From NCBI RefSeq assembly GCF_022808815.1, contig NZ_JAKZLC010000003.1:1-64000 (forward strand): a stretch of 64,000 bases of DNA, written 5' to 3'. A program made the position numbers and the translations under genes. This DNA comes from Geothrix paludis (GTDB taxonomy: Bacteria; Acidobacteriota; Holophagae; Holophagales; Holophagaceae). Below, in pieces: positions 12,214 through 25,445 of the stretch. Numbering within the stretch: the stretch's first letter is position 1; every line of letters begins with the position of its first letter. The notes beneath the pieces were generated by a model, which worked only from the letters and a program-made list of their open reading frames with translations, was not told where the DNA came from and did not search any database.

Positions 12214-12858
12214 TCAGCCGTCCAGGTGGATGATGCCCCGCTTGAGGGCCACCATGGCGGCCTCGGTGCGGTCCTTCACCTGGAGCTTGCGCAGCAGGTT
12301 GTTCACGTGGATCTTCACCGTGGGCTCCGCCAGGCCGAGGGAGTCCGCGATCTCACGGTTCCGCTGGCCCTGGGCAAGCAGGCGCAGCACATCCAGCTCC
12401 CGGGCGGTGAGGCGCTCGGATTCCATGCCCTCCACCAGGCGGGCGGCCGTGGCGGGAGGCAGGTACCGCTGCCCCGCGGCCACGGCGCGAACGGCCTCGA
12501 TGAGTGTGCCGCGTCGCATGCTCTTCAGCAGGTAGCCCCGGGCCCCGGCCTCCAGGGCGCGCTGGATGTCGGCATCGCCGTCGAAGGTGGTGAGGACCAG
12601 GATCCGGGCATCCGGATCCTCGCGCCGGATGGCCGTGATGGCCTCCACGCCCGTCTGGCCGGGAAGCTGGAGGTCCATGATGATGACCGTGGGGCGCAGG
12701 GTGCGCCAGGCCGCCACGGCCTCCTTGCCGTCACCGGCCTCGCCGACCACTTCGAGATCGGGTTCCCCGTGGTGGAGGATGGCTACCAGGCCATCGCGGA
12801 CCACTGGATGGTCGTCCACGATGAGGAGACGGATGGGATCGGAAGGGGTCGTGGTCAT
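12214..12858 (-). CDS. NarL/FixJ-family response regulator
   Basis: A 214-residue two-component regulator. The N-terminal receiver has LLIVDDHPVVRDG, the phospho-acceptor Asp in VIIMDLQLPG and the Lys in GYLLKSM. The C-terminal LuxR-type helix-turn-helix has LTARELDVLRLLAQGQRNREIA and PTVKIHVNNLLRKL. I chose the ATG at 12858 because it overlaps the kinase stop (ATGA) and has GGAG at good spacing; a start 9 bases upstream would put that GGAG against the codon. Coupled translation with the propeller kinase marks them as a cognate pair. Confidence 0.93.
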   Translation of the reverse strand: MTTTPSDPIRLLIVDDHPVVRDGLVAILHHGEPDLEVVGEAGDGKEAVAAWRTLRPTVIIMDLQLPGQTGVEAITAIRREDPDARILVLTTFDGDADIQRALEAGARGYLLKSMRRGTLIEAVRAVAAGQRYLPPATAARLVEGMESERLTARELDVLRLLAQGQRNREIADSLGLAEPTVKIHVNNLLRKLQVKDRTEAAMVALKRGIIHLDG

Positions 12859-15800
12859 GGGCGCCATCTCCGGAGGGGCAGGATGATGGTGATGCGGGTG
12901 CCCCGTCCCGGTCCACTGTCGATATCGATGCGGCCCCGGAGCTTGCCCAGGGTTTCTCGGATGCTGCGGAGGCCATAGCCCGCGGCCCCGGCCGCTGGGT
13001 CGAAGCCCTTGCCGTCATCCTCGACGCGCAGTCCCACCTCCCGCCGCTTGTAGTGGACAGTCACCCGGACCCACTTGGCCTTGCCATGGCGGAGGGCGTT
13101 GGTGAGGGCCTCCTGCGCCATGCGCAGCAGCTCCTCCTCCAGCTTGGCGTCCAGGCGCCTCGGCTCTCCGGTATGGGCCAACTCCACCCGGATGCCCGTG
13201 CCCGCGAGGAGGCGGTCCGACAGGATGCGCAGGGCGCCCAGCAGGTCGGTCCCCTCGGGCTTGCGGGGGCTCAGGGCCATCACGGACCGGCGCGCCTCCT
13301 GGAGGCTGGCGGCCGCCAGCTCGCGGGCCCGGTCGAGGCGGGTGAGCACCGGCGCGGGATCGCCCGCCAGGCGGGCTAGGCCGGCCTCGGCGGCCTCGAG
13401 CTGGAGCAGCACGCCCGTGAAACCCTGGGCCAGGTGGTCATGGATCTCCCGGGCCATGCGGTTGCGCTCGTCCAGCACGGCGGAGCGGGCCTCCACCTGC
13501 TGGAGGCGGAGGCGCAGCAGCCACCATCCGAAGAGGCCGGCCGCCAGGGCGCACAGGGCCCAGAACACCGGACGCTGGTGGAAGAAGGGCTGGACCCGCA
13601 CTTCGAGGGAGACCTCCTGCGGGGGGCCCTCCTCCCCGGGCCGCCAGGCCTGGAGGCGGAAGCGCCGCGTGCCCGGGGGCAGGTTCGAGTACACCGCGAA
13701 GCGCCGGTCCCCCACTTCGTTCCAGCCCGGATCGATGCCCTCCATGCGGTACCGGAACCGCAGCTTCTCGGCGCCCGTGAGGCTGATGCCCGTGTAGTGG
13801 ATCTCCAGCCGGTGGCTGCCGGGCGCCAGGTCCAGGGGACCCACGATGGATCGCGCCGATTCGTCGCTCAGCACCTTCGCCAGATACAGGCGGAGGGGCG
13901 GCGGAGGCGGCGGCAGCCGGCGGGTGTCCGCATGGGCCATGCCCCGGCTGGTGGGAACCCAGAGCTCGCCTTCACGGGTGAGCCAGGCGACGGGCTGGGG
14001 GCCTCCGTGGGTCTCCCGGGCGGGCAGGCCGTCCCAGTGATCGAAGGTGGTGAGGGGGGAGGGGCCGGCGGCGGGCAGCCCCCGGCTCAGGGTCGGCCGG
14101 GGAACGCGGAGCACGCCCTGGCTGGTGCTGAGCCATAGGTTCTGGTCCGCGTCCTCCAGGATGGCGTGGATGGCCGTCTTCAGGAGCCCCTCGGGACCGG
14201 TGAACGCCTGGAAGGCGTCATGGCGGAAGAGGCGCAGGCCGTCCGAGGTGCCCACCCACAGGGATCCCGCCGCATCCAGGTACAGGGCCTGGGCGCCGGC
14301 GGAAGCCAGACCCTGGGCGGCCCCGAACCAGTGCAGGCCCTCGGCGTCCAGGATCCCGACCCCCTGGGATGGGCTGGCCACGTACAGGGGCTCCGGGCCG
14401 CCTCCGGCCATGGCCACCACGCCCCGGGCCAGCGGGAAGAGCTGGTGCGACCCGCTGGACAGGAGCTTCAGCAGCCCCTGACGGGGCGTGGCGATCCACA
14501 GGTCGCCGGCGGGGTCTTCGTAGAGGGTGAGGATCTCATCGGGCTCCGGTCCGCCCTGCCAGGGCACGGCCCGGGCCCTTCCCGCCTCCAGGATGAACAG
14601 CCCCCCTTTCCGGGTGCCCATCCAGAGGCCGCCGCTCTTGCGGGGCCACAGCGCGGAGATGGGCCCGGGCCCCACGGCCCCGGTCAGGGCGAAGGGTTCG
14701 ATGCGGCCGTCGCGGACCTGGCCCAGGACCTGATCCCCCGTGAGGCACCAGACGGTGCCCGAGGCGTCCTGGCAGACCATCCTGGCCGCTTCTTCTGGCT
14801 CGGGCCCCCTCACCGGCACGGCCTGGAAGGGAGCGGCGACCGCCGCGCGGAGGCCGCGGTCTTCGCTTCCCACCCACAGGGTTCCGGCGCGGTCCTCCAG
14901 CAGGCAGAGCACGGTCCACCGGATCTGCGGCCCATCGGGCGCAGTCTCCAGCCGGCCGTCCCGCATCCGGTGGTACAGGCCCGCCTGTTCGGTCCCGATC
15001 CAGAGGCCGCCGCCGCGGTCCGCCCGGAGGGTGGTGATGGCCCGCGCGGGGAGACCGCCGAGGCCGCTGGAAGGCCCCAGGCGGCCGTCCGCGAAGGTGA
15101 GCAGTCCCTGGGTCCGCGTGCCCACCCACAGCGTCCCGGCGGCGTCCTGCTCGAGGGCCGTGATGTCGCCGGCCGAGAGGGCCACCAGCTCCATCCGCCG
15201 GTCCCGGACCCGCCAAAGCCCAGATCCCGCCGTGCCCACCCAGAGTGTGCCCTCGCGGTCCGTCGCCATGGCCTGGATCCGCACGTGGACGGCGTCACAG
15301 GCGATCGGCTGGAACCGCTCCCCGACCAGTTGCACCAGCGGTCCTTCGGCCGGGGCGGCCCAGAGGGTGCCCCGGGGATCCGCCGCCAGGCGGAGGATGG
15401 GGCTGTCGGGCAGGCCTTCCGCAGGGCCGAGGGCGGTGAAGACGCCCTGCTTCAGGCGGAAGAGGCCCGGCTGCGAGGTGCCGATCCAGAGGCTGCCGTC
15501 CGGGGTTTCGGCCAGGCATCGCACGTCATTGTGGGTGAAGGCGGGCGCCTCGCGCCGGGACAGGCGATCGAACCGGGCTCCATCGAACCGGGCCAGGCCA
15601 TCCTCGGTGCCCACCCACAGGAACCCGTCCCGGCTTTCCAGCAGGGCCGTGGCCGTGTCCTGGGCCAGTCCCGGCTGGTTCCGCCAGAGCCGATGGCCCT
15701 GGGCCGGGGGCTGGGCGCGGTTGGAGTCGCGGGCCGCGAGGATCGTGGGCGCCACGAGCATCATCGACACCATGAGCATCATGGGCATCGCGATCCCCAG

Positions 15801-15872
15801 CGACAGGGCGGCGGCGCACCATCCGGCCCAGCCTCTGCGGAAGCCCTGAAAACCTGCCCAGCCCATGATCAT
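12855..15872 (-). CDS. Two-component sensor kinase with periplasmic beta-propeller and HisKA_3 domain
   Basis: A 1005-residue sensor. A Met-rich hydrophobic N-terminus (about 17-46) serves as signal anchor. It is followed by about 13 ligand-binding 'two-component regulator propeller' repeats of the DGxLWVGTxxGL type (about 60-660), a Y_Y_Y-like domain (about 690-755, LRFRYRMEGIDPGWNEVGDR), one membrane helix (VFWALCALAAGLFGWWLL), a HisKA_3 domain with acceptor His in REIHDHLAQGF near 810, and a HATPase domain. This is the architecture of periplasmic polymer or metabolite sensors. It is transcribed divergently from the multiheme cytochrome cluster, which could be its target. The ligand cannot be read from sequence. 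Confidence 0.93.
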   Translation of the reverse strand: MIMGWAGFQGFRRGWAGWCAAALSLGIAMPMMLMVSMMLVAPTILAARDSNRAQPPAQGHRLWRNQPGLAQDTATALLESRDGFLWVGTEDGLARFDGARFDRLSRREAPAFTHNDVRCLAETPDGSLWIGTSQPGLFRLKQGVFTALGPAEGLPDSPILRLAADPRGTLWAAPAEGPLVQLVGERFQPIACDAVHVRIQAMATDREGTLWVGTAGSGLWRVRDRRMELVALSAGDITALEQDAAGTLWVGTRTQGLLTFADGRLGPSSGLGGLPARAITTLRADRGGGLWIGTEQAGLYHRMRDGRLETAPDGPQIRWTVLCLLEDRAGTLWVGSEDRGLRAAVAAPFQAVPVRGPEPEEAARMVCQDASGTVWCLTGDQVLGQVRDGRIEPFALTGAVGPGPISALWPRKSGGLWMGTRKGGLFILEAGRARAVPWQGGPEPDEILTLYEDPAGDLWIATPRQGLLKLLSSGSHQLFPLARGVVAMAGGGPEPLYVASPSQGVGILDAEGLHWFGAAQGLASAGAQALYLDAAGSLWVGTSDGLRLFRHDAFQAFTGPEGLLKTAIHAILEDADQNLWLSTSQGVLRVPRPTLSRGLPAAGPSPLTTFDHWDGLPARETHGGPQPVAWLTREGELWVPTSRGMAHADTRRLPPPPPPLRLYLAKVLSDESARSIVGPLDLAPGSHRLEIHYTGISLTGAEKLRFRYRMEGIDPGWNEVGDRRFAVYSNLPPGTRRFRLQAWRPGEEGPPQEVSLEVRVQPFFHQRPVFWALCALAAGLFGWWLLRLRLQQVEARSAVLDERNRMAREIHDHLAQGFTGVLLQLEAAEAGLARLAGDPAPVLTRLDRARELAAASLQEARRSVMALSPRKPEGTDLLGALRILSDRLLAGTGIRVELAHTGEPRRLDAKLEEELLRMAQEALTNALRHGKAKWVRVTVHYKRREVGLRVEDDGKGFDPAAGAAGYGLRSIRETLGKLRGRIDIDSGPGRGTRITIILPLRRWRP

Positions 15873-16224: not shown

Positions 16225-18120
16225 ATGAGCAGGATCCCAGCCTGGACGAGCCTTTGCGGGGTCCTTCTCCTGGTGACCGCCGCCCTGATCGGTTGCGGAA
16301 AGGGGGCCACCGATCCGGTGACGTACTACGGCTACTACCACCCGGCCGGCTGGATCAACGAGCACGCCGGCAAGGCCATGGCGGATGTGGGCAGCTGCGC
16401 CAAGTGCCACGAACTGACGGTCCTGAAGGTCGGCAGCGGCGTGCCGTCCTGCATGACCTCGGCCTGCCACCACGGCACCCAGCCCGGCTGGGCGAACGCG
16501 GATCTCCACGGGCTGCGGGCGAAGCTGGCGGCGGGCCCTTCGGGCGGAAGCTTCGCCTCCTGCCAGATCTGCCACGGGAAGGACTTCTCCGGGGGCGGTT
16601 CGGCGAACGCCTGCGCGACCTGCCACGGGGTCCAGGCGCCGCACCCCGCCAAGCCATGGCGCCTCTCCGCCGGATCGCTCCACACGCACACCACCACGGA
16701 TCCCTCCAACGCCGCGGTCTGCGCCCAGTGCCACTACCCGGGCTCCCCCAACAACCCCGCGGGGCATCCGGCCGCGCCGGCCCCAGCGGGCACGCAGCCC
16801 GGCTGCTACAACGCCACCCTCTGCCACGCGAACGCCGGCGCGCCCCATCCGCTCGGCCCCATCTGGACGGATGCCACGAGCCCCTCGTTCCATGGGATCC
16901 AGGCCAAGCAGGACCTGCTCTACTGCCAGAGCTGCCACGGCACGCCCGGCACTCCGAAGTTCGATGGCGGCACAGCGTCGACGGCCTGCTCCGCCTGCCA
17001 CACGGCGGCCTTCGCCCATTCCACGACCTGGTACCAGGATCCGGTCCAGACCTTCCCCGGCTATGTGCCTTCGCATCGCAACGCGGGCAGTCTCGCGGCC
17101 TGCCAGGCCTGCCATGACGGCCTCGTCCAGGGCCGGACCGCACCCCTGCCCGCGGCTCCGAGCTGCTACTCGGCCTCCTTCGACAACGGCGTCCACGGCA
17201 CGGTCGGATGCCACTCCAACGGCCCCGCCGCGCCCAACCATCCTGTCCCCTTCACGGGCACGACCCACACGACGGTGACCCAGGCCCAGTTCACCGCGGA
17301 CTGCGCGTCCTGCCATGCGGTGGCCGGGACCTCTCCGGTGTCGGGGGCGCCGCTTTGCAGCGTGTGCCACCAGGCCGCCTCCCCCCTGGACGCCGGGAAG
17401 GGCCCGGGGACTTGCCTCTCCTGCCACGTGGGCGCGGCCGGCCTGCCCGCCGGTCCCACGGGCACGGCCTTCCCCAGCCTGGCCGGAGCTCATGCCAAGC
17501 ATATGGGCCTGCGGACCTCCCTGACCTGCAACACCTGCCACAACGGCATCGGCGCCGGCAGCCTGACGCACTACAACGCCGCCAACGCGCGCGTCTCCCA
17601 GCCGACCTCCCCGGCCCCGGTGGCCATGGTGGCCACCTTCAACGCCCAGTCGGGCACGGCCGGGTTCACTGCCGCCGCGCTGACCTGCTCCAACGTGAGC
17701 TGCCACGGCGGCCAGACGACCCCCAACTGGCAGACGGGGACGCTCGCCGTGAATGCCACCACCTACTGCCAGGCCTGCCACAAGATCGCCTCCACGCCCA
17801 CGCAGTACAACGACGCCACGGGCCGGCATAACAACCCGAGCGACCACAACCAGACCTGCGACTACTGCCATGACATGACGCAGGCCAAGCCGGGCGCCCA
17901 GAACCACTTCAAGTACCTCGACACCACCGCGGTCAGCGGAGCCGTCACCGGCGCGCCCGCCGACCAGTTCCCCAGTGACACCATCCGGTTCGGAGGCGGC
18001 TCGCAGCCGGCCACCGGCGCGCTCACCTACACCGTCACGTCCAGCACCCAGGGGCAGGGCGGTTGTGCGCTCAGCTGCCACGGCCAGACCCACACCACCT
18101 CCGGGAACACCTGGAACTGA
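16225..18120 (+). CDS. Multiheme c-type cytochrome lipoprotein (13 CXXCH motifs plus CX4CH variants)
   Basis: A 631-residue exported electron carrier. The N-terminus is a lipoprotein signal (VTAALIGC, acylated Cys24), preceded by a GGAGGTGCCAGC ribosome-binding site. I count 13 canonical CXXCH heme sites (including CAKCH, CQICH, CATCH, CAQCH, CQSCH, CSACH, CASCH, CSVCH, CLSCH, CNTCH and CDYCH). There are also wider-spaced cysteine-CH motifs: CMTSACH, CSNVSCH, CYNATLCH and CALSCH. The CSNVSCHGG ... CQACH unit is the CX4CH/CXXCH arrangement seen in Geobacter outer-membrane cytochromes. The product is probably a periplasmic-side or surface lipoprotein in extracellular or trans-outer-membrane electron transfer. 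It leads a four-gene cluster with a monoheme cytochrome, a beta-barrel and a membrane protein with a heme motif. Confidence 0.92.
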   Translation: MSRIPAWTSLCGVLLLVTAALIGCGKGATDPVTYYGYYHPAGWINEHAGKAMADVGSCAKCHELTVLKVGSGVPSCMTSACHHGTQPGWANADLHGLRAKLAAGPSGGSFASCQICHGKDFSGGGSANACATCHGVQAPHPAKPWRLSAGSLHTHTTTDPSNAAVCAQCHYPGSPNNPAGHPAAPAPAGTQPGCYNATLCHANAGAPHPLGPIWTDATSPSFHGIQAKQDLLYCQSCHGTPGTPKFDGGTASTACSACHTAAFAHSTTWYQDPVQTFPGYVPSHRNAGSLAACQACHDGLVQGRTAPLPAAPSCYSASFDNGVHGTVGCHSNGPAAPNHPVPFTGTTHTTVTQAQFTADCASCHAVAGTSPVSGAPLCSVCHQAASPLDAGKGPGTCLSCHVGAAGLPAGPTGTAFPSLAGAHAKHMGLRTSLTCNTCHNGIGAGSLTHYNAANARVSQPTSPAPVAMVATFNAQSGTAGFTAAALTCSNVSCHGGQTTPNWQTGTLAVNATTYCQACHKIASTPTQYNDATGRHNNPSDHNQTCDYCHDMTQAKPGAQNHFKYLDTTAVSGAVTGAPADQFPSDTIRFGGGSQPATGALTYTVTSSTQGQGGCALSCHGQTHTTSGNTWN

Positions 18121-18160
18121 CGCCTACCGCCTTTCAACCCTCCCCATAGGAGATTCCTCC

Positions 18161-18514
18161 ATGAGCCGTGCCATCCTGCCCCTCCTGCTGCTCGCCGGCG
18201 TCACGCTGACCGCCGGGGACCCCGCCAAGGACCTGCCCAAGTTCCAGGGCGATCTCCAGAAGTACTGGACCGATGCCTGCGCCCGCTGCCACGGCGTCAA
18301 CGGCAACGGCCGCGACAACAGCGGCAAGCCGCTCCCCGATGCCGGCTTCGACTTCACCGATAGCCGCAAGGCCAACAAGAAGAAGGACAGCGACTGGGTG
18401 AAGGTCACCATGCAGGGCAAGGACAAGATGCCGGCCTTCAAGGACAAGATGTCCGAGGCTGACGCCCAGAGGATGATCACGGACATCGTCCGCAAGTTCG
18501 CCGCCAAGCGCTGA
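18161..18514 (+). CDS. Small monoheme cytochrome c
   Basis: A 117-residue periplasmic protein with a cleavable signal (MSRAILPLLLLAGVTLTAG). The class I cytochrome c domain has one heme site CARCHGVNGNG and a likely axial Met in GKDKMPAF near residue 89, followed by the usual C-terminal helix with DIVRKFAAKR. The ribosome-binding site AGGAGATTCCTCC lies directly before ATG. It lies 40 bp downstream of the multiheme cytochrome and 11 bp upstream of the beta-barrel gene, so it is probably their soluble electron shuttle. Confidence 0.92.
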   Translation: MSRAILPLLLLAGVTLTAGDPAKDLPKFQGDLQKYWTDACARCHGVNGNGRDNSGKPLPDAGFDFTDSRKANKKKDSDWVKVTMQGKDKMPAFKDKMSEADAQRMITDIVRKFAAKR

Positions 18515-18525
18515 GTGGAGGTCGG

Positions 18526-19392
18526 ATGCCACGGAAGCTTCTCTCCCTCGCCTGCGCCCTCGGAGCCGCGGGTGCCCTCCACGCCGAGTCCTCGGACTAT
18601 CCTCTGGCCATCAACCTCCCCACGGCCGAGCGGATGCAGTTCTGGGACATCGGCCTCGCCTTCACCCACCGCTTCGTCACCCCGGTGAAGGACCACGGCA
18701 AGGATGTCTACGGCCTGGACGGCTACGCCTATGCCGGACTGGGGTTCACCTTCGGGATCAAGCCGGTCCCGGGCCTCAATGCGTTCATCTACCGCACGGC
18801 GGACAACAAGACCTTCACCTTCGGCCTGCAGCAGCAGGTGCTGGACCTGGATCGCATCCGCATGGCCGTGCGGGCCGAGCGGTTCGACGAGGTGGTGCCG
18901 GCCACCACCACACCCATCGGAAGGGTGGGCGTCGCCGGTGGCGTCTTCCAGGTTCCCACGGAGATCTTCCTCACGGACGACATCATCTTCTCGGTGGTGC
19001 CCACCTACATCACGAAGACCACCACCACCGACACGATCCTGGCGGTGCCGCCCGGGGCCGCGCCCAACACCTCGCCCAACACGGGAGGCGTGTTCAACGT
19101 GGGCCTGGGCCTGCGCATCGGGTTCACCGAAAAGTTCTCCTTCATGGGCGAGTACTATCCGCGGCCGTCCAAGTTCGCCCACGCCACGCCCGGCGTCGTG
19201 ACGGACGGCAGCACCTACCGGCCGGGCTTCGCCGCCGGCGTCTCCTACCGGACCTTCAAGCACCGCTTCACCCTCATCGGCACGAACGTTCCGGGCACCA
19301 CGGCCAACCAGGTCCTCAGCGGAGACTACGGGGGCGGGCCCAGGTCCTCCTCCCAGTGGTCCATCGGCTTCAACGTCGTCCGCGTGTTCTGA
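18526..19392 (+). CDS. Outer-membrane beta-barrel protein (DUF5777-like)
   Basis: A 288-residue protein with a signal peptide (about 1-20, ending ALHAES). The mature part has alternating hydrophobic/polar strands, many Gly/Tyr/Phe turns and a C-terminal aromatic residue (IGFNVVRVF), all typical of outer-membrane barrels. LPTAERMQFWDIGLAFTHRF and the GEYYPRP segment recall DUF5777 barrels, which often sit beside cytochrome c genes. Position after two cytochromes suggests a porin through which the multiheme protein, or electrons, could cross the outer membrane. The function is inferred; the barrel nature is well supported. Confidence 0.85.
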   Translation: MPRKLLSLACALGAAGALHAESSDYPLAINLPTAERMQFWDIGLAFTHRFVTPVKDHGKDVYGLDGYAYAGLGFTFGIKPVPGLNAFIYRTADNKTFTFGLQQQVLDLDRIRMAVRAERFDEVVPATTTPIGRVGVAGGVFQVPTEIFLTDDIIFSVVPTYITKTTTTDTILAVPPGAAPNTSPNTGGVFNVGLGLRIGFTEKFSFMGEYYPRPSKFAHATPGVVTDGSTYRPGFAAGVSYRTFKHRFTLIGTNVPGTTANQVLSGDYGGGPRSSSQWSIGFNVVRVF

Positions 19393-19404
19393 GGTCACCC
19401 GCCC

Positions 19405-20382
19405 GTGTCCACCACCTCCCTGCTCGAGTTCATCGCCCGGGAGCACCCGGCCTTCGTCCACATCCCCCTGGGCCTGATCGCCGTGCTGCCGCTGGCCATG
19501 CTGGCCTCCTTCCATCCGAGGCATGTCCGCCTGTGGACGGGCACCTCATTCTTCCTGGCCCTCGTGGGATGGCTGGGCAGCACCGTGGCCCTGGCCAGCG
19601 GCCTCCTGTGGGGGCGCCAGATCGCGCTCATCCCGCCCGGGGCCTTCCTGCCGCGAGTGGCCACCGAGAAGCAGGTCCTGCAGCGGATCCTGCAGCTCCA
19701 CGAGCTGGCGGCCTTCAGCGGGTTCCTGATCGGTGGCCTCTGCCTCTGGCTGCTCTGGCGCGCTTGGCGCCGGCTCGATGCCCCCGCGGCACTGGGTCGT
19801 CCCAGGCGGGGGGGGCGCCGGTTCTGGGAACGGGGGGTGGGGGCGGGTCCGTTGCTGGTGGGCGTCATCTGGCTGGGGTGCTGGGGCTTCAGCGGGAAGC
19901 TGGGCGGCATCATGGTCTTCGGCAACGAGGAGACCAACCGGGCCGCGGCGGAGGCGGACGCCGCCAAGCGCGCCGACACCGAGGCGGACCTGCCCATCCG
20001 GGCCCTGGACTATGCCAGCCTGGAACCGGCCACGCCGGCGCCGATGCGGAGCAGGGCCCACGGCGACCGCTGGCTGCGCGCCTGGATCACCGCCTCGGGG
20101 ATCGACGCCTACCGTGCCGGCCAGCCGCTTCCCCCGGGGGCCTACGCGGTGCTCTCCACCTACGAGGACGACCACGGCCGGCCCGGGACCGAGCCGGGTC
20201 CGCTCTACATGAGGGAGACGAAGGCCGACGGAACCAGCGCCTTCGTCTTCTACTGGCCCCGGGTGCCGGAGGCCCGGCGCGGAGAGGTGGAGGGCCAGGA
20301 CGGGGTCTACTGGCGGAGTCCCGACCCGCACCTGGCGGCCTGCGGGGACTGCCACGCGAAACCCGGCGCGGCCCGGAAATAG
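19405..20382 (+). CDS. DUF2231-like membrane protein with C-terminal P460-like heme-binding domain
   Basis: A 325-residue protein starting at GTG, with GAGG a little upstream. The N-terminal half has four hydrophobic helices and the EHPAFVHIPLGL motif of DUF2231-like membrane proteins. After a hydrophilic linker, the C-terminal domain (about 215-325) contains a WITASGIDAYRAG segment, a FYWPRVPEA strand and a single CGDCH heme site at the very end, resembling cytochrome P460-type domains. It could be the inner-membrane electron entry point for the preceding cytochromes. The P460 label is tentative; a generic monoheme domain is the alternative. Confidence 0.75.
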   Translation: MSTTSLLEFIAREHPAFVHIPLGLIAVLPLAMLASFHPRHVRLWTGTSFFLALVGWLGSTVALASGLLWGRQIALIPPGAFLPRVATEKQVLQRILQLHELAAFSGFLIGGLCLWLLWRAWRRLDAPAALGRPRRGGRRFWERGVGAGPLLVGVIWLGCWGFSGKLGGIMVFGNEETNRAAAEADAAKRADTEADLPIRALDYASLEPATPAPMRSRAHGDRWLRAWITASGIDAYRAGQPLPPGAYAVLSTYEDDHGRPGTEPGPLYMRETKADGTSAFVFYWPRVPEARRGEVEGQDGVYWRSPDPHLAACGDCHAKPGAARK

Positions 20383-20440: not shown

Positions 20441-23125
20441 ATGCGCCTGATGATCCTGAGCCCCCTGGCCCTGTCGATCTGCCTGGCTTCGCCGCTGGCC
20501 GCCGCGGGTCGCCCCCGGAAGGCTGAGCCCGCGGCGCCGCCCGCGGCCCCGGCCCTCCCGGTGGACGCCACCTTCCTGAAGCCCCTCAAGGCCAGGGCCA
20601 TCGGCCCCGCCGTCATGGGCGGGCGCATCTCCGACGTGGCCGTGGATCCCTCGGATCCCTTCACCTGGTACGTGGCCCTCGCCCACGGCGGCGTGATGAA
20701 GACCACCGACGCGGGCGCCAGCTTCCAGCCCGTCTTCGACAAGACGGGCGTAGCTTCCATCGGCGCCTTGGCCGTCTCGCCGGCCAACCCCAAGGTGGTG
20801 TGGGCCGGCACGGGCGAGGCCAACGACCGCAACAGCTCTGGCTGGGGCAAGGGCGTCTTCCGCAGTGAGGATGGCGGGGCCACCTGGGGCGCGGCGGGGC
20901 TTACTGCCAGCCGCTGCATCGCGCGCCTGGCCGTCCACCCGAAAGACGAGGCCGTGGCCTATGCGGCGGCCATGGGCGACCTGTGGACGCCGGGCGGCGA
21001 GCGGGGACTCTACAAGACCACCGACGGCGGGAAGAGCTGGAAGGCCGTGCTCACCGCCCTGGCGCCCTTCGGCGACCGGGTGGGCTGCGGGGATGTGGTG
21101 CTGGACCCGCGGAACCCCGACACCGTCTATGCGGCCCTCTACGCGCGACGCCGCTTCCCCTGGGCCTTCCAGGCGGGGCCGGCGGCCACAGAGGGGCGTG
21201 ACCTGGGCGGGATCTTCCGCAGCACGGACGGCGGGGCCACCTGGACCAAGCTCACGAAGGGCCTGCCGGCGGGCACCGGGCGCATCGGCCTGGCCGTCGG
21301 CGCCTCCAAGCCAGGCGTGGTCATGGCCGTGGTGCAGAGTGACGAGGGCGGCACCGTCCCCATCATGGACATCATGAGCAAGGCCGGCGGCACCTTCCGC
21401 TCCGAGGATGGCGGCGACACCTGGACCCGCACCAGCCCCCTGAACCCCCGCCCCTTCTACTTCAGCCAGATCCGCATCGCCCCGGATGACGACCGCCGCG
21501 TCTACGTCCTGGGTTTCGGCCTGCACGTCTCCGAGGATGGCGCCGCCACCTGGCGGGAGGACCGCTCCGAGAAGGTGCATCCCGATCTTCACGCCCTGGC
21601 CTTCGATCCCAAGGCCCCGAAGCACCTCCTGCTGGGGACCGATGGCGGCCTGTACCAGAGCCATTCCGCCGGCGCCTCCTGGGAGGCGCTGAACCGCTTC
21701 CCCGCCGGGGAGTACTACCGCATCGCCGTGGACGACAGCACGCCCTACCGGGTGGCGGGCGGGCTCCAGGACAACCGGAACTGGGTGGGACCCGGCCGCA
21801 CCTTCAGCAAGGACGGCATCCTCAACCAGGACTGGACGAACCTGGGCGGTGGCGACGGTTTTCACGTGCTGTTCGATCCCGCCGACGCCGGTGTCCTGTT
21901 CGCGGAAAGCCAGGGAGGATCCATCTTCCGGGTGAACCTCCGCAGCGGGGCCATGAAGTTCCTGCGGCCCGAGCCCGCCGAGGGCCAGGAGGCCTACCGC
22001 TTCCACTGGGCCAGCCCCTTCCTCCGCAGCCGCCATGCCAAGGACGTGCTCTACCTGGCGGGCAACCGTGTGTTCAAGCTCACGGACCGAGGCGAGCGCT
22101 GGAAGCCCATCAGCCCCGACCTCACCACCCAGGATCCGAAGCGGACCCGCACCAGCGGCAGTGGCGCCGAGACCTACGGCGTGATCTACACCCTGGCCGA
22201 ATCCCCGGCCAAGGCCGGGCTGCTCTGGGCCGGCACCGATGACGGCAAGGTCTGGCGCACCGAGGACGAGGGCGGCACCTGGACCGACCTGACGCCGAAC
22301 CTGCCGGCGGCCGTGAAGGGCCAGTGGATCCAGCGCCTCGAGGCCGGCCGGGAGCCCGGCGTGGCCTACCTGGCGGTCCAGGCCCACCGGACCGGTTCGT
22401 ACGCGCCGCTGGTCTACCGCACGGCGGACGGCGGGAAGACCTGGCAGGGGCTTGGCGCGGGCCTGCCCCAGGACCAGCCGGCCCATGTGGTGAAGGAGGA
22501 TCCGGTCAACCCGAAGGTGCTCTACTGCGGCACCGAGGGCGGCCTGTTCGTGAGCCTGGACCAGGGCCAGCGCTGGCTACCTCTGGGCGATCTGCCGCCG
22601 GTGCCCGTGGACGACCTGGCCATCCAGGCCCGGGAGAACGATCTGGTCATCGCCACTCACGGCCGCAGCCTCTACGTGCTGGACGACCTCTCCGTGCTGC
22701 AGGGCTTGTCTCCGGAGGTGCTGGGCGGGGAGCTGCACCTCTTCGCGCCCCGGCGCGTCCTGGCCCGCCAGCTCCTGCCCGGAAACGCCAGCGAGGAGGG
22801 GAAGGCCGGGACCTTCCGGGGGACCAACCCGCCCCTGGGCGCCACCTTCCAGATCTACCTCAAGGCCGACACCGGGGAGGACCTGAGCTTGGCCATCAAT
22901 GCTCCGGACGGGCGGCCGGTGGCCAACCTCAAGGCGCCGGGCCGGGCCGGCCTCCAGCGCATCGCCTGGGACCTGAAGCCCACCTCGGACCTGGTTTCCG
23001 AGTACCGCGGCGAAGGCTCGAAGTTCGTCAAGCCAGGCCCCTACACCGTCACCGTGACCCGGGGTTCGGCGAAGGCCACGGGGACGATCCAGGTGGAGGT
23101 CGGCGAGGATCTGGAGACGCGCTGA
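20441..23125 (+). CDS. Secreted BNR/sortilin-type beta-propeller protein
   Basis: An 894-residue exported protein (signal MRLMILSPLALSICLASPLAA, then a Pro/Ala linker). Two propeller regions carry repeated Asp-box sequences such as TTDAGASFQ, SEDGGATW, TTDGGKSW and STDGGATW, with GGR and GTGEAN segments as in the VPS10/sortilin-related 'glycosyl hydrolase' annotations of Bacteroidota and Acidobacteriota. A C-terminal immunoglobulin-like part (about 790-894) ends GTIQVEVGEDLETR. No glycosidase catalytic residues can be assigned, so a binding or scaffold role is as likely as hydrolysis. It converges with a hybrid kinase with 1 bp between stops. Confidence 0.85.
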   Translation: MRLMILSPLALSICLASPLAAAGRPRKAEPAAPPAAPALPVDATFLKPLKARAIGPAVMGGRISDVAVDPSDPFTWYVALAHGGVMKTTDAGASFQPVFDKTGVASIGALAVSPANPKVVWAGTGEANDRNSSGWGKGVFRSEDGGATWGAAGLTASRCIARLAVHPKDEAVAYAAAMGDLWTPGGERGLYKTTDGGKSWKAVLTALAPFGDRVGCGDVVLDPRNPDTVYAALYARRRFPWAFQAGPAATEGRDLGGIFRSTDGGATWTKLTKGLPAGTGRIGLAVGASKPGVVMAVVQSDEGGTVPIMDIMSKAGGTFRSEDGGDTWTRTSPLNPRPFYFSQIRIAPDDDRRVYVLGFGLHVSEDGAATWREDRSEKVHPDLHALAFDPKAPKHLLLGTDGGLYQSHSAGASWEALNRFPAGEYYRIAVDDSTPYRVAGGLQDNRNWVGPGRTFSKDGILNQDWTNLGGGDGFHVLFDPADAGVLFAESQGGSIFRVNLRSGAMKFLRPEPAEGQEAYRFHWASPFLRSRHAKDVLYLAGNRVFKLTDRGERWKPISPDLTTQDPKRTRTSGSGAETYGVIYTLAESPAKAGLLWAGTDDGKVWRTEDEGGTWTDLTPNLPAAVKGQWIQRLEAGREPGVAYLAVQAHRTGSYAPLVYRTADGGKTWQGLGAGLPQDQPAHVVKEDPVNPKVLYCGTEGGLFVSLDQGQRWLPLGDLPPVPVDDLAIQARENDLVIATHGRSLYVLDDLSVLQGLSPEVLGGELHLFAPRRVLARQLLPGNASEEGKAGTFRGTNPPLGATFQIYLKADTGEDLSLAINAPDGRPVANLKAPGRAGLQRIAWDLKPTSDLVSEYRGEGSKFVKPGPYTVTVTRGSAKATGTIQVEVGEDLETR

Positions 23126-23126
23126 C

Positions 23127-25445
23127 CTAGCGGGTCCCAGAGGCCCCCAGCATCTCGGCCATGAGGGCGAGCAGCCGCGACAGCTCGAAGGGCTTGGGCA
23201 GGAGCCGCACCCGGGGCACCTTGGCCAGCTTCGCCTCCATGCCCTCCAGTCCCTGGCCGCTCACCAGGATGAAGGGCACCGTCGAGCCCGTGGCGCGGAT
23301 CCGCTCCAGCAGCTCCAGGCCCGTGCAGTCGGGCATGCGATGGTCGCTCAGCACCAGGTCGAAGCGGCCCGTCTGCCAGGCCTGCCAGGCCACGCCGCCG
23401 TCCGGGGTCGCCGTGACCTGGGCCCGGGCCAGGGTCAGGGCGTCCGCCAGCATGTCGCGCAGCAGGGCCTCATCCTCGGCCACCAGGATCCGCCGTCCGG
23501 CCAGGGTTCCCGGGGCCCCGGCGGGATCGGTCGGGGCCGGGGCTTCCTGAGGCGCGTCCGTGGGGATCGGCGGGAGGCACATGCGGAAACAGGCTCCGCC
23601 GCCTGGGGCGTTCTCCGCCCAGATCTGCCCCTGGTGGGCCCGCACGATGCCGAAGACCATGGCCAGGCCCAGGCCGGTGCCCTTGGTCGAATCCTTGGTG
23701 GTGACAAAGGGCTCGAAGATGTGCGGCAGGAGGTGGTCGGGGATGCCCGTGCCCGTGTCCTGGACCTCCATGCAGACCTGCCCTTCCTCGCCCAGGAAGG
23801 TCCGGAGGGTGAGGCTGCCCCCCGCCGGCATGGCATCTCGTGCGTTCACCACCAGGTTCATGAGCACCTGCTCCAGTTGCACCGAGTCGCCCTCCACCCG
23901 GGGAAGGTTCAGGTCGAGGGCCAGGTGCAGCCGGATCATGCCCCCCAGCAGGCGCTCCATGAGGGCCGCCGTATCGCGGATGAGCGCGTTGAGGTCGAGG
24001 GGCTTCAGCTCCGGCCGCGACTGGTGGCTGAAGGACAGCAGGGCCTTGGTGGTCTGGGCACAGCGTTTCGTGGCCTCCTCGGCGCGGAGGATCCGGGCGA
24101 TCACCGGATGCCCCTCGGGCAGCAGCTCCCGGCTCAGGTGGAGCTGGCCCAGGATCGCGGCCAGCTGGTTGTTGACGTCGTGGGCGATGCCCCCCGCCAG
24201 GGTGCCCACGGTCTCCATGCGCTGGCTGTGCTCCAGCTGGCTCTGCAGGCGGGCGCGGTCCGCGAGGCTCTCGTCCGCCCGGAGGAGGGCGCGCTCCAGG
24301 CTGCGGATCTCCTGGATGTCCGAGCGGACGGTGGGAGCGGGTCCGCCCTGCCCCAGGGTTTCCGCCATGGTTCCGAGGGCGGTGATGGGTTCGGCCACCC
24401 TGCGGGCGATGTGGTGGATGCGCCAGGCCGCCAGGGCGAGGCCGATGATGACCAGGCCGAGCAGGCCCGCCACCCGGAATCCCAGCGGGCCCAGCAGGTC
24501 ATCCTCGGGGATGGCCAGCAACAGCGACCAGTGGAGGCCCGGGAGGCCCTCGAAGGAGCGGGACAGCCCCATGGCCGTCCGGCCCCCCAGGTGGACGCGG
24601 CGGGGCGCCCCATCCCTCGCATCGTCCTCCAGGCGGATCCCCGGATTCGGGAAGCGGGCTTCCGGGGCCTTGAGAAAGGCCTGGCGGCGGTGTTCGGGGG
24701 ACTCGTAGGCCGCATCCCGCGGAAGGATCAGGGCCCGTCCCTGGGGATCCACCACGAGGGATTGGCTGCCGGGCGTGGGCTGGGCGGACCAGACGCGGCG
24801 GGTGAGGTCGTCCAGCAGGAAGTCCAGGGCCACCACGCCCCGGAGGCCGGCCCCGTCACGGAGGGGCAGGGTGTACGTGATGCCGGGATCCTGGGTGGTG
24901 TAGAAGGTGTAGGGCTCGGTCCAGGCCGGGGCCGAGGCCGCCGCCCCGGCGGCGTACCAGGGCCGGGTGCGGGGGTCGTAGGGCATGGGCGTCCACGGCC
25001 CCGGCGCCGCCGGTCCCGCCAGTTCCAGGCGCCGCCAGCGGATCCGGGCCCCGGGCCCCGCGTTCTCCAGTTCCCGGAGGGACCAGACTTGGCCGATTCT
25101 CAGGAAGAGCAGGGATCGCCCCTCCGCGGTGGCCAGGTTGAGGCTGGTGATGCTGTGCTGGGCCGTCAGGGCCGGCAGGATCATCCGGGCGGCCTGCTCG
25201 GGCTGGGCCGGATCCAGGGTCCCGTCCGCCCACCAGTCATGGACCACTTGGCCGAGGGACTGGGAGGCTTGGAGATCGATCCGGAGCAGCTCGTCGAGGT
25301 GGCGCAGCGCCGTCTTGGCCCGGGCGCCCGCCTGCCGCTCCAGCGCCCGCTGCTGGCCCCACCAGGCCAGGCCGAGGAGCAGCGTGAACAGACCCGTCAT
25401 GAGGATCAGGTGATCCCGCAACAGCAGGCGGCGGATGGGAAGCAT
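23127..25445 (-). CDS. Membrane hybrid histidine kinase with periplasmic Cache-type sensor and receiver domain
   Basis: A 772-residue sensor. A first membrane helix (about 13-32) is followed by a periplasmic region of about 270 residues with dCache-like features (YDPRTRPWYAAGA, YTLPLRDGAGLRGVVALDF). A second helix (GLLGLVIIGLALAAW) and a HAMP-like linker come next, then HisKA with acceptor His in GGIAHDVNNQ near 420, HATPase motifs (NLVVNARDA, DTGTGIP, GTGLGLAM), and a C-terminal receiver (VAEDEALLRD near 653, acceptor Asp in LVLSDHRMP near 698). DPRTRPWY is typical of small-molecule-binding Cache domains. It has no adjacent partner; the gene stands alone upstream of a convergent BNR-repeat gene. 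Confidence 0.92.
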   Translation of the reverse strand: MLPIRRLLLRDHLILMTGLFTLLLGLAWWGQQRALERQAGARAKTALRHLDELLRIDLQASQSLGQVVHDWWADGTLDPAQPEQAARMILPALTAQHSITSLNLATAEGRSLLFLRIGQVWSLRELENAGPGARIRWRRLELAGPAAPGPWTPMPYDPRTRPWYAAGAAASAPAWTEPYTFYTTQDPGITYTLPLRDGAGLRGVVALDFLLDDLTRRVWSAQPTPGSQSLVVDPQGRALILPRDAAYESPEHRRQAFLKAPEARFPNPGIRLEDDARDGAPRRVHLGGRTAMGLSRSFEGLPGLHWSLLLAIPEDDLLGPLGFRVAGLLGLVIIGLALAAWRIHHIARRVAEPITALGTMAETLGQGGPAPTVRSDIQEIRSLERALLRADESLADRARLQSQLEHSQRMETVGTLAGGIAHDVNNQLAAILGQLHLSRELLPEGHPVIARILRAEEATKRCAQTTKALLSFSHQSRPELKPLDLNALIRDTAALMERLLGGMIRLHLALDLNLPRVEGDSVQLEQVLMNLVVNARDAMPAGGSLTLRTFLGEEGQVCMEVQDTGTGIPDHLLPHIFEPFVTTKDSTKGTGLGLAMVFGIVRAHQGQIWAENAPGGGACFRMCLPPIPTDAPQEAPAPTDPAGAPGTLAGRRILVAEDEALLRDMLADALTLARAQVTATPDGGVAWQAWQTGRFDLVLSDHRMPDCTGLELLERIRATGSTVPFILVSGQGLEGMEAKLAKVPRVRLLPKPFELSRLLALMAEMLGASGTR

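Follow-up and report, generated by a model that had tools for sequence, protein, structure and literature searches.

A four-gene cassette with a multiheme lipoprotein

We analysed a 64,000-nucleotide stretch of Geothrix paludis DNA (contig NZ_JAKZLC010000003.1, positions 1 to 64,000; hereafter the window), in which four adjacent plus-strand genes, here called A to D, on balance probably encode an accessory conduit for the export of electrons across the outer membrane. Gene A (16225..18120) specifies a multiheme lipoprotein of 631 amino acids (aa), which we refer to as the wire; B (18161..18514) is a 117-aa CBB3-like monoheme c-type cytochrome with a signal-peptide-like N-terminus; C (18526..19392) is a 288-aa DUF5777 outer-membrane beta-barrel; and D (19405..20382), which starts at GTG, is a DUF2231-like membrane protein with a P460-like C-terminal domain that ends in a CXXCH motif. 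The genes are separated by 40 (A-B), 11 (B-C) and 12 (C-D) nucleotides, and stretches resembling GGAGG or AGGAG lie upstream of A, B and C. An earlier note on this DNA, made from the sequence alone, had described four tightly spaced genes on one strand, and its coordinates and gene contents proved correct when set against Pfam, NCBIfam and motif counts. The nearest named loci are those of Geothrix sp. SG200 and G. terrae, members like the window of an acidobacterial genus from soils and sediments.

The wire protein has a lipobox (LIGC, residues 21-24) followed by 18 motifs of the form CXnCH, namely 13 CXXCH, two CX4CH and one each of CX3CH, CX5CH and CX14CH. The earlier count of 13 CXXCH therefore stands, but the motifs then grouped as CX4CH-type are a mixture of CX3CH, CX4CH and CX5CH, and the CX14CH motif had been overlooked. 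Shuffling the residues of A 2000 times gave a mean of 0.14 CXXCH motifs and never more than 2. Pfam and NCBIfam place the protein with Cytochrome_C7, MtrC/MtrF-like and CxxxxCH/CxxCH cytochromes, and residues 473-537 exceed the NCBIfam cut-off for TIGR01904, the CxxxxCH/CxxCH family (32 versus 27 bits); a phmmer search of A against the PDB gave no match at E 0.1. The CX14CH motif is comparable to that of OmcZ.

The spacings of these motifs follow a grammar. A six-motif head, H6 (16396..16827, residues 58-201), reads 2-4-2-2-2-5 in values of n; it is followed by a four-motif block, T4 (16924..17214, residues 234-330), which reads 2-2-2-14 in the window, is present in 0, 1 or 2 copies in relatives and has a variable last motif (CX14 or a shorter long spacing); and then by an eight-motif block, O8 (17212..18117 with its flanks), which reads 2-2-2-2-4-2-2-3 in the window, ends in 3 or 4 in relatives and occurs in 1 to 5 tandem copies. 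The window protein thus has 6+4+8 = 18 motifs. This grammar is obeyed by 32 of 33 complete A proteins, the misfit being the protein of locus L135, which has a shorter head; the count omits L109 and L133, which are cut by contig ends, L125, which is without A, and the wires of genomes G308, G009 and G033 discussed below, and it skips a stray CCH 5' of the start in L111. Totals across relatives are 14, 18, 22, 26, 30, 34, 42 or 50 motifs, the last in the 1744-aa frame of L132. A quick tree of 76 O8 copies, built without support values, groups the blocks of three-block Geothrix proteins by position, places the window's single block closer to last-position blocks, and puts three of the inner blocks of L132 in a cluster with a single inner block from L131, its relative; from this last grouping, the inner blocks seem to have multiplied recently. 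That the non-standard motifs are so strictly conserved argues for heme binding by them as well. A model of the O8 block (mean pLDDT 72.4) had no Foldseek match in the PDB, a result that is not evidence of a new fold. A profile match between O8 and UndA (3.5e-4) consists of four weak stretches joined by CXXCH motifs, and we do not claim homology.

The B protein matches Cytochrome_CBB3 in Pfam (8.7e-10), and its single CARCH motif is conserved in all 18 rows of the alignment. C scores above the Pfam cut-off for DUF5777 (PF19089; 1.2e-18, 67.7 versus 23.1 bits). An AlphaFold model of C made with 19 close homologs has about 12 strands, a count that carries the low confidence of the model (mean pLDDT 52.9). 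In a VIA comparison the first 21 rows (Z 16.2 to 14.0) are EspP (16.2), KdgM (15.8), FapF (15.3), NanC (14.1) and similar proteins, and a row titled as a 12-stranded design scores Z 12.6. Barrels of the EspP, KdgM, FapF and NanC kind have 12 strands. The top Foldseek rows are CymD, AlgE, FapF and other barrels at an rmsd of about 7-13, and we did not take a function for C from its fold. As modelled, a barrel of about 12 strands is too narrow to enclose a multiheme chain. The earlier note had the barrel and the multiheme lipoprotein export electrons together; on this low-confidence model, C would not sheathe the multiheme protein in the way that MtrB does. B is a likelier partner of C than A, and relatives of B and C are fused elsewhere.

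Protein D has four hydrophobic segments. An alignment of 18 cluster-type rows and 4 paralog rows (a C is cluster-type if it scores highly, and a D if it directly adjoins such a C) shows that three histidines in or next to the membrane part (residues 14, 19 and 99, in the numbering of the GTG-initiated protein, one above that of the alignment) and the terminal CXXCH are invariant across both forms, and the histidines are candidate b-heme ligands. D has one CXXCH only and is not multiheme, unlike the quinol oxidases CymA, CbcL and ImcH. A D-like paralog occurs in all 26 Geothrix genomes surveyed, including those without the quartet. In the window's own genome this second copy (G000:C4:196838-197731, equivalent to L031:9842-10729) is about 41% identical to D and stands apart from any A, B or C gene; close to it (L031:7445-8890) lies the gene of a protein that has a single CTTCH motif and three rhodanese stretches.

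Occurrence of the quartet as one unit

A search with D among 60 relatives found a full cluster-type D in 28 of 37 same-genus genomes (own genome included), with B and C beside it in 28/28 and an end of A in 25/28. Among 32 named loci found via C, 30 have the complete A-B-C-D in order; the exceptions are L133, taken up below, and L125, where the contig begins inside B. Wherever B is present, at 31 of the 32 named loci, it is encoded in a frame apart from that of C. The quartet is also present in other genera of the family, in genomes G379 (L131), G160 (L135), G199 (L136) and G416 (L091), and in loci L132 and L134. Across 396 Acidobacteriota genomes a cluster-type C was found in 23, with an adjoining D in 22; the remaining one, G316, is the genome of L133. 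The 26 Geothrix genomes among the 396 divide into 18 with both cluster-type C and D and 8 with neither, these 8 retaining paralogs only, some of them in fragmented assemblies. Eight-heme blocks are missing from 7 of these 8. Outside the family, the survey of 396 genomes returned just three weak partial D matches. The conservation of gene order that the earlier note had put forward as a check is thus borne out within Acidobacteriota, where the quartet is kept in those 30 of 32 loci and is present or absent whole; in the 396 genomes, only one family has a cluster-type D next to C. The record of L133 (JAJTBC010000172.1) is titled Bacillota bacterium; it carries a Holophagaceae-type A-C pair and its contig is also found in the window's family, as G316, and the title is probably wrong.

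Clean empty sites can be seen in four species (G015, G207, G133 and G019), in which the left and right flanks of the unit lie 126-263 bp apart. The left flank is a sensor kinase gene and the right flank a second sensor kinase gene (23127-25445 in the window) followed by the gene for alanyl-tRNA synthetase (AlaRS). With E values up to 1 allowed, the loci of the empty sites yielded nothing for B or C; A and D each had a single match at chance level, that of A (0.003) lying elsewhere in L221 and that of D having E 0.13. In a fifth unit-less genome, G008, the contig ends at the site (L223). When presence of the unit is mapped onto a tree of the neighbouring AlaRS gene (29 rows, 4 of them empty), it requires 4 whole-unit changes, of which at least 3 are forced by well-supported branches. 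This repeated joint absence is, at the level of sequence, the best evidence that A, B, C and D act together.

The left-flank kinase gene (12855..15872, minus strand), a divergently transcribed sensor histidine kinase with Reg_prop, Y_Y_Y and HisKA_3 domains, is conserved in Geothrix: among loci L105-L130 it adjoins the unit in 22 of 26, with only part of it present in L130, and the other four contigs end before it. A response regulator gene (12214..12867, minus strand) adjoins it, and neither was found in L131-L136. We rejected both as members of the unit, since the kinase is present at the four empty sites and the regulator is kept in 6 of the 8 unit-less Geothrix genomes. Directly 3' of D, a sortilin/BNR-repeat protein (20441-23125) was likewise rejected; among the loci compared, it is present only in L105 and L106 and their duplicates L036 and L035, which are the closest relatives (SG200 and G. 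terrae). Plasmid records gave no match to A or C; insertion ends were not searched for.

Apparent exchange of the wire, and partners of DUF5777 barrels

A-type wires are not restricted to the quartet. The Geothrix genome G308 has neither C nor a cluster-type D, and yet it encodes a homolog of A that is 1167 aa long and 47% identical and has 34 motifs. Two genes adjoin it, one for a pentaheme protein of 159 aa that carries a lipobox and one for a putative barrel of 461 aa; the last is read as a barrel from its sequence and has no Pfam or NCBIfam match. The same trio is found in two more Geothrix genomes, G009, which also carries a window-type quartet, and G033, where it is cut by a contig end. 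In all three wires the last motif of the eight-heme blocks is CX3CH or has a spacing that was not assigned. A relative of the 461-aa protein is present in 31 of the 37 same-genus genomes, and that of the window's own genome, 45% identical, adjoins pentaheme and decaheme proteins, an arrangement also seen in the quartet-less G015. The own-genome locus (G000:C4, L236:1-10863) encodes the putative larger barrel with pentaheme and six-heme proteins, then decaheme lipoproteins with N-terminal (GTN)n collagen-like repeats. To judge from such gene content, the quartet is a second, accessory conduit in a genus that also has one of classical appearance. The A-type wire looks exchangeable between small-barrel and larger-putative-barrel feeders, and the fact that both kinds of feeder can come with it supports a role for A as the outward component.

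DUF5777 domains occur in 118 of the 396 Acidobacteriota genomes, against none of 14 control genomes. We surveyed the neighbours of 50 DUF5777 loci (L160-L209) from 50 Acidobacteriota genomes outside the family, 30 from the first rows of matches and 20 from the rows after them, counting heme motifs (CXXCH or CX4CH) and CuA-type motifs (CX3CX3HX2M) within 1 kb upstream of the barrel domain on the same strand. Such a motif is present at 41 of the 50 loci, 20 times in the frame of the barrel itself, 27 times in another frame and 6 times in both. The antisense control gave 1/50 and the downstream control 9/50, the latter including six loci with less than 1 kb of sequence there, and at least some of its nine hits look like real cytochromes or zinc ribbons. 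With a monoheme-lipoprotein profile we found 22/50 separate upstream genes, 9 N-terminal fusions and one C-terminal match (L207); this profile derives from neighbours of the barrels and is biased in their favour, and the count of 41/50 is independent of it. Pfam identified DUF5777 in 10/10 fused frames. Two of these (L169 and L198) combine Cytochrome_CBB3 and DUF5777, the families of B and C, in one open reading frame (ORF), and three (L195, which is not among the 41, L200 and L205) combine Cupredoxin_1 and DUF5777. In Geothrix, a paralog of C directly follows a Rieske protein in all 4 loci read.

Pairing of DUF5777 barrels with a one-cofactor domain is, on these sequences, common and not universal, and the best reading of B-C is a Cyc2-like gate in split form. 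A wider reading is that DUF5777 barrels make up a class of small outer-membrane electron gates that is widespread and has gone unrecognised, each gate having a fused or neighbouring one-cofactor plug (monoheme cytochrome, CuA-type cupredoxin or Rieske protein). Geothrix would have a split version joined to a multiheme wire; the tandem copy number of the eight-heme block would set how far this wire reaches, and the wire could dock on either conduit. The barrel-redox fusions bring this tentative reading to a little short of an even chance. Three observations weigh against a general pairing with such domains: 9 of the 50 barrels are without an upstream motif (though one of these, L195, has the Pfam-fused cupredoxin); 5 of the 10 fused ORFs have DUF5777 without a named cytochrome or cupredoxin family; and related barrels in G332 and G372 adjoin an alpha/beta hydrolase.

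Several further arrangements of these barrels were seen. A Rieske protein followed by a second DUF5777 barrel is found in the window's own genome (G000:C2, L085:8661-10030), and the pair recurs in L097, L098 and L099; in L092 both a Rieske protein and a monoheme cytochrome lie near a DUF5777 barrel; and in L103 and L104 DUF5777 barrels also adjoin proteins with CHRD or PKD domains. A full-text literature search found no publication naming DUF5777, and searches on Geothrix electron transfer and on cupredoxin-barrel fusions found no description of the quartet or of the fusions. PMC6344600 refers to unspecified novel porin-cytochrome clusters in Geothrix, which may be this quartet. The suggestion in the earlier note that the set is undescribed therefore agrees with the searches, but is qualified by these clusters already in print.

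A proposed electron path and its relation to known systems

We propose that D, in the inner membrane, would take electrons, probably from quinol, and pass them via its P460-like c-heme domain to the periplasmic monoheme protein B. Seated in or at the mouth of C, B would form with it a two-piece counterpart of the one-heme barrel Cyc2, and the electrons would then reach the lipoprotein A at the outer face, where 14 to 50 heme motifs would make a wire that differs in length between species and reduces Fe(III), humics, an electrode or a partner cell as external acceptor. We infer the heme loading, location and contacts of the four proteins in this scheme, as well as its direction, use of quinol and acceptor. 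Export is the favoured direction, since PMC12285243 describes Geothrix as electrogenic both on electrodes and in a humic lake. The electron conduit suggested in the earlier note is thus retained, and is favoured by the quartet itself, its whole-unit behaviour and a wire shared with the larger-barrel/pentaheme cluster; what changes is the likelier partner of the barrel, B in place of the multiheme protein.

The same genes could be read in other ways. C might be a portal that exports or anchors A in the manner of FapF or an autotransporter and carries no electrons, in which case A would be fed by the larger-barrel conduit, and B and D would serve in maturation or a side path. The translocators EspP and FapF are indeed among the best structural matches of C, and a classical-looking conduit exists in the same genome; however, the porins KdgM and NanC score about equally against what is a poor model, G308 has an A-type wire without C, and one-cofactor redox domains are fused to, or encoded just ahead of, DUF5777 barrels at other loci, all of which leaves the portal unlikely. 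Reversal of the flow, with A gathering electrons from Fe(II), reduced humics or a partner cell and passing them through C-B and D to the quinone pool, would be in keeping with the bidirectionality of outer-membrane conduits in other bacteria (PMC6148476, PMC6295460) and with the resemblance of a one-heme barrel to the iron oxidase Cyc2 (PMC8406198). We nevertheless consider it distinctly unlikely, given the description of Geothrix as an electrogen (PMC12285243) and the proposal that ImcH homologs, that of G. fermentans included, are quinol oxidases (PMC6295460). Finally, the system might be a periplasmic one for respiration or detoxification, in which the P460-like domain of D turns over NO or hydroxylamine and A acts as a periplasmic electron store. 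Weak Cytochrome_P460 matches in 14 of the 22 D rows and the occurrence of the D paralog without A, B and C at all six paralog loci examined (L029-L034) point that way, but this reading leaves unexplained the barrel, the lipoprotein wire and the presence of the wire beside a larger putative barrel and pentaheme protein, and we regard it as very unlikely.

The proposed export conduit has its own difficulties. Locus L133 has a fragment of A with C and neither B nor D, and the AlaRS tree does not distinguish losses of the unit from gains. The model of C is poor, and its approximately 12 strands make it narrower than Cyc2, with 16, for a protein across which electrons would pass. The matches that define D are weak: DUF2231 is below the Pfam cut-off (7.3e-5), and in the alignment, with E up to 1 allowed, DUF2231 is found in 20 of the 22 rows and Cytochrome_P460, with a best value of 9e-4, in the 14 noted above. 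The response regulator beside the kinase persists in the unit-less genomes as an ortholog of at least 85% identity, and the other classical-looking conduit makes A-D dispensable for some export.

The quartet is a discrete genetic unit with natural knock-outs, in the form of species with clean empty sites, and with a natural length series of wires (14, 18, 22, 26, 30, 34, 42 and 50 motifs). Two questions can now be put to the test. One is whether electrons can cross a barrel that has no room for a multiheme plug, and the other is whether the length of the wire decides which acceptors lie within its reach. DUF5777, a family without an assigned function, also gains a concrete hypothesis.

A porin-cytochrome conduit has been defined as a periplasmic multiheme cytochrome, an outer-membrane barrel and a redox lipoprotein (PMC6148476). 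C provides the barrel (DUF5777 at 1.2e-18, with a low-confidence barrel model) and A the redox lipoprotein (lipobox and 18 CXnCH motifs, by sequence only). There is no periplasmic multiheme cytochrome in the quartet, where B has one CARCH and the only other genes with heme motifs are A and D (one CXXCH), and for this reason we do not file it as a member of the defined conduits, but it would work like one. The Geobacter conduits OmbB-OmaB-OmcB, ExtABCD and ExtEFG resemble it in setting a barrel beside a multiheme lipoprotein in one cluster, the lipoprotein at the surface being their most variable part; they differ in having a multiheme periplasmic cytochrome, and the Ext barrels have 18-21 predicted transmembrane segments (PMC6148476), whereas the quartet has B with its one heme motif, a modelled C of about 12 strands and the membrane partner D within the cassette.

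MtrCAB, MtoAB and PioAB likewise cross the outer membrane with a barrel and cytochromes, but their barrels have 24-32 strands around a decaheme protein (PMC8406198, PMC5566968) and C, as modelled, is far narrower. Known conduits are reported to have barrels of 18 or more strands, with 24-32 for Mto/Pio and 26-28 for Mtr, and Cyc2 has 16 (PMC6148476, PMC5566968, PMC8406198), and C, at 288 aa and about 12 modelled strands, falls short of an MtrAB-type sheath of about 26 strands round a decaheme cytochrome. The putative clusters PCC3 and PCC4 of iron oxidisers share with the quartet a barrel, many-heme cytochromes and a conserved inner-membrane protein in the cluster (PMC5566968). PCC3 differs in its barrels of up to 42 strands and its periplasmic multiheme protein (PMC5566968), and the PCC3/PCC4 inner-membrane protein has five helices and WX3HX13H motifs, in contrast to the four hydrophobic segments and P460-like heme domain of D. 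The classical-looking locus of the window's own genome (L236) belongs to the same genus, and its barrel has relatives that stand with an A-type wire in G308, G009 and G033 (L218, L237 and L238); it differs in its approximately 460-aa putative barrel and its pentaheme, six-heme and decaheme proteins.

Cyc2 and Cyc572 likewise join one heme to one barrel, with the cytochrome proposed to act as a plug (PMC8406198, PMC10654088). Theirs is a single chain with 16 predicted strands, whereas B and C are separate genes with about 12 modelled strands and a multiheme wire beside them; the likeness drawn here is one of architecture, and DUF5777 relatives of C are fused to heme domains in the same manner.

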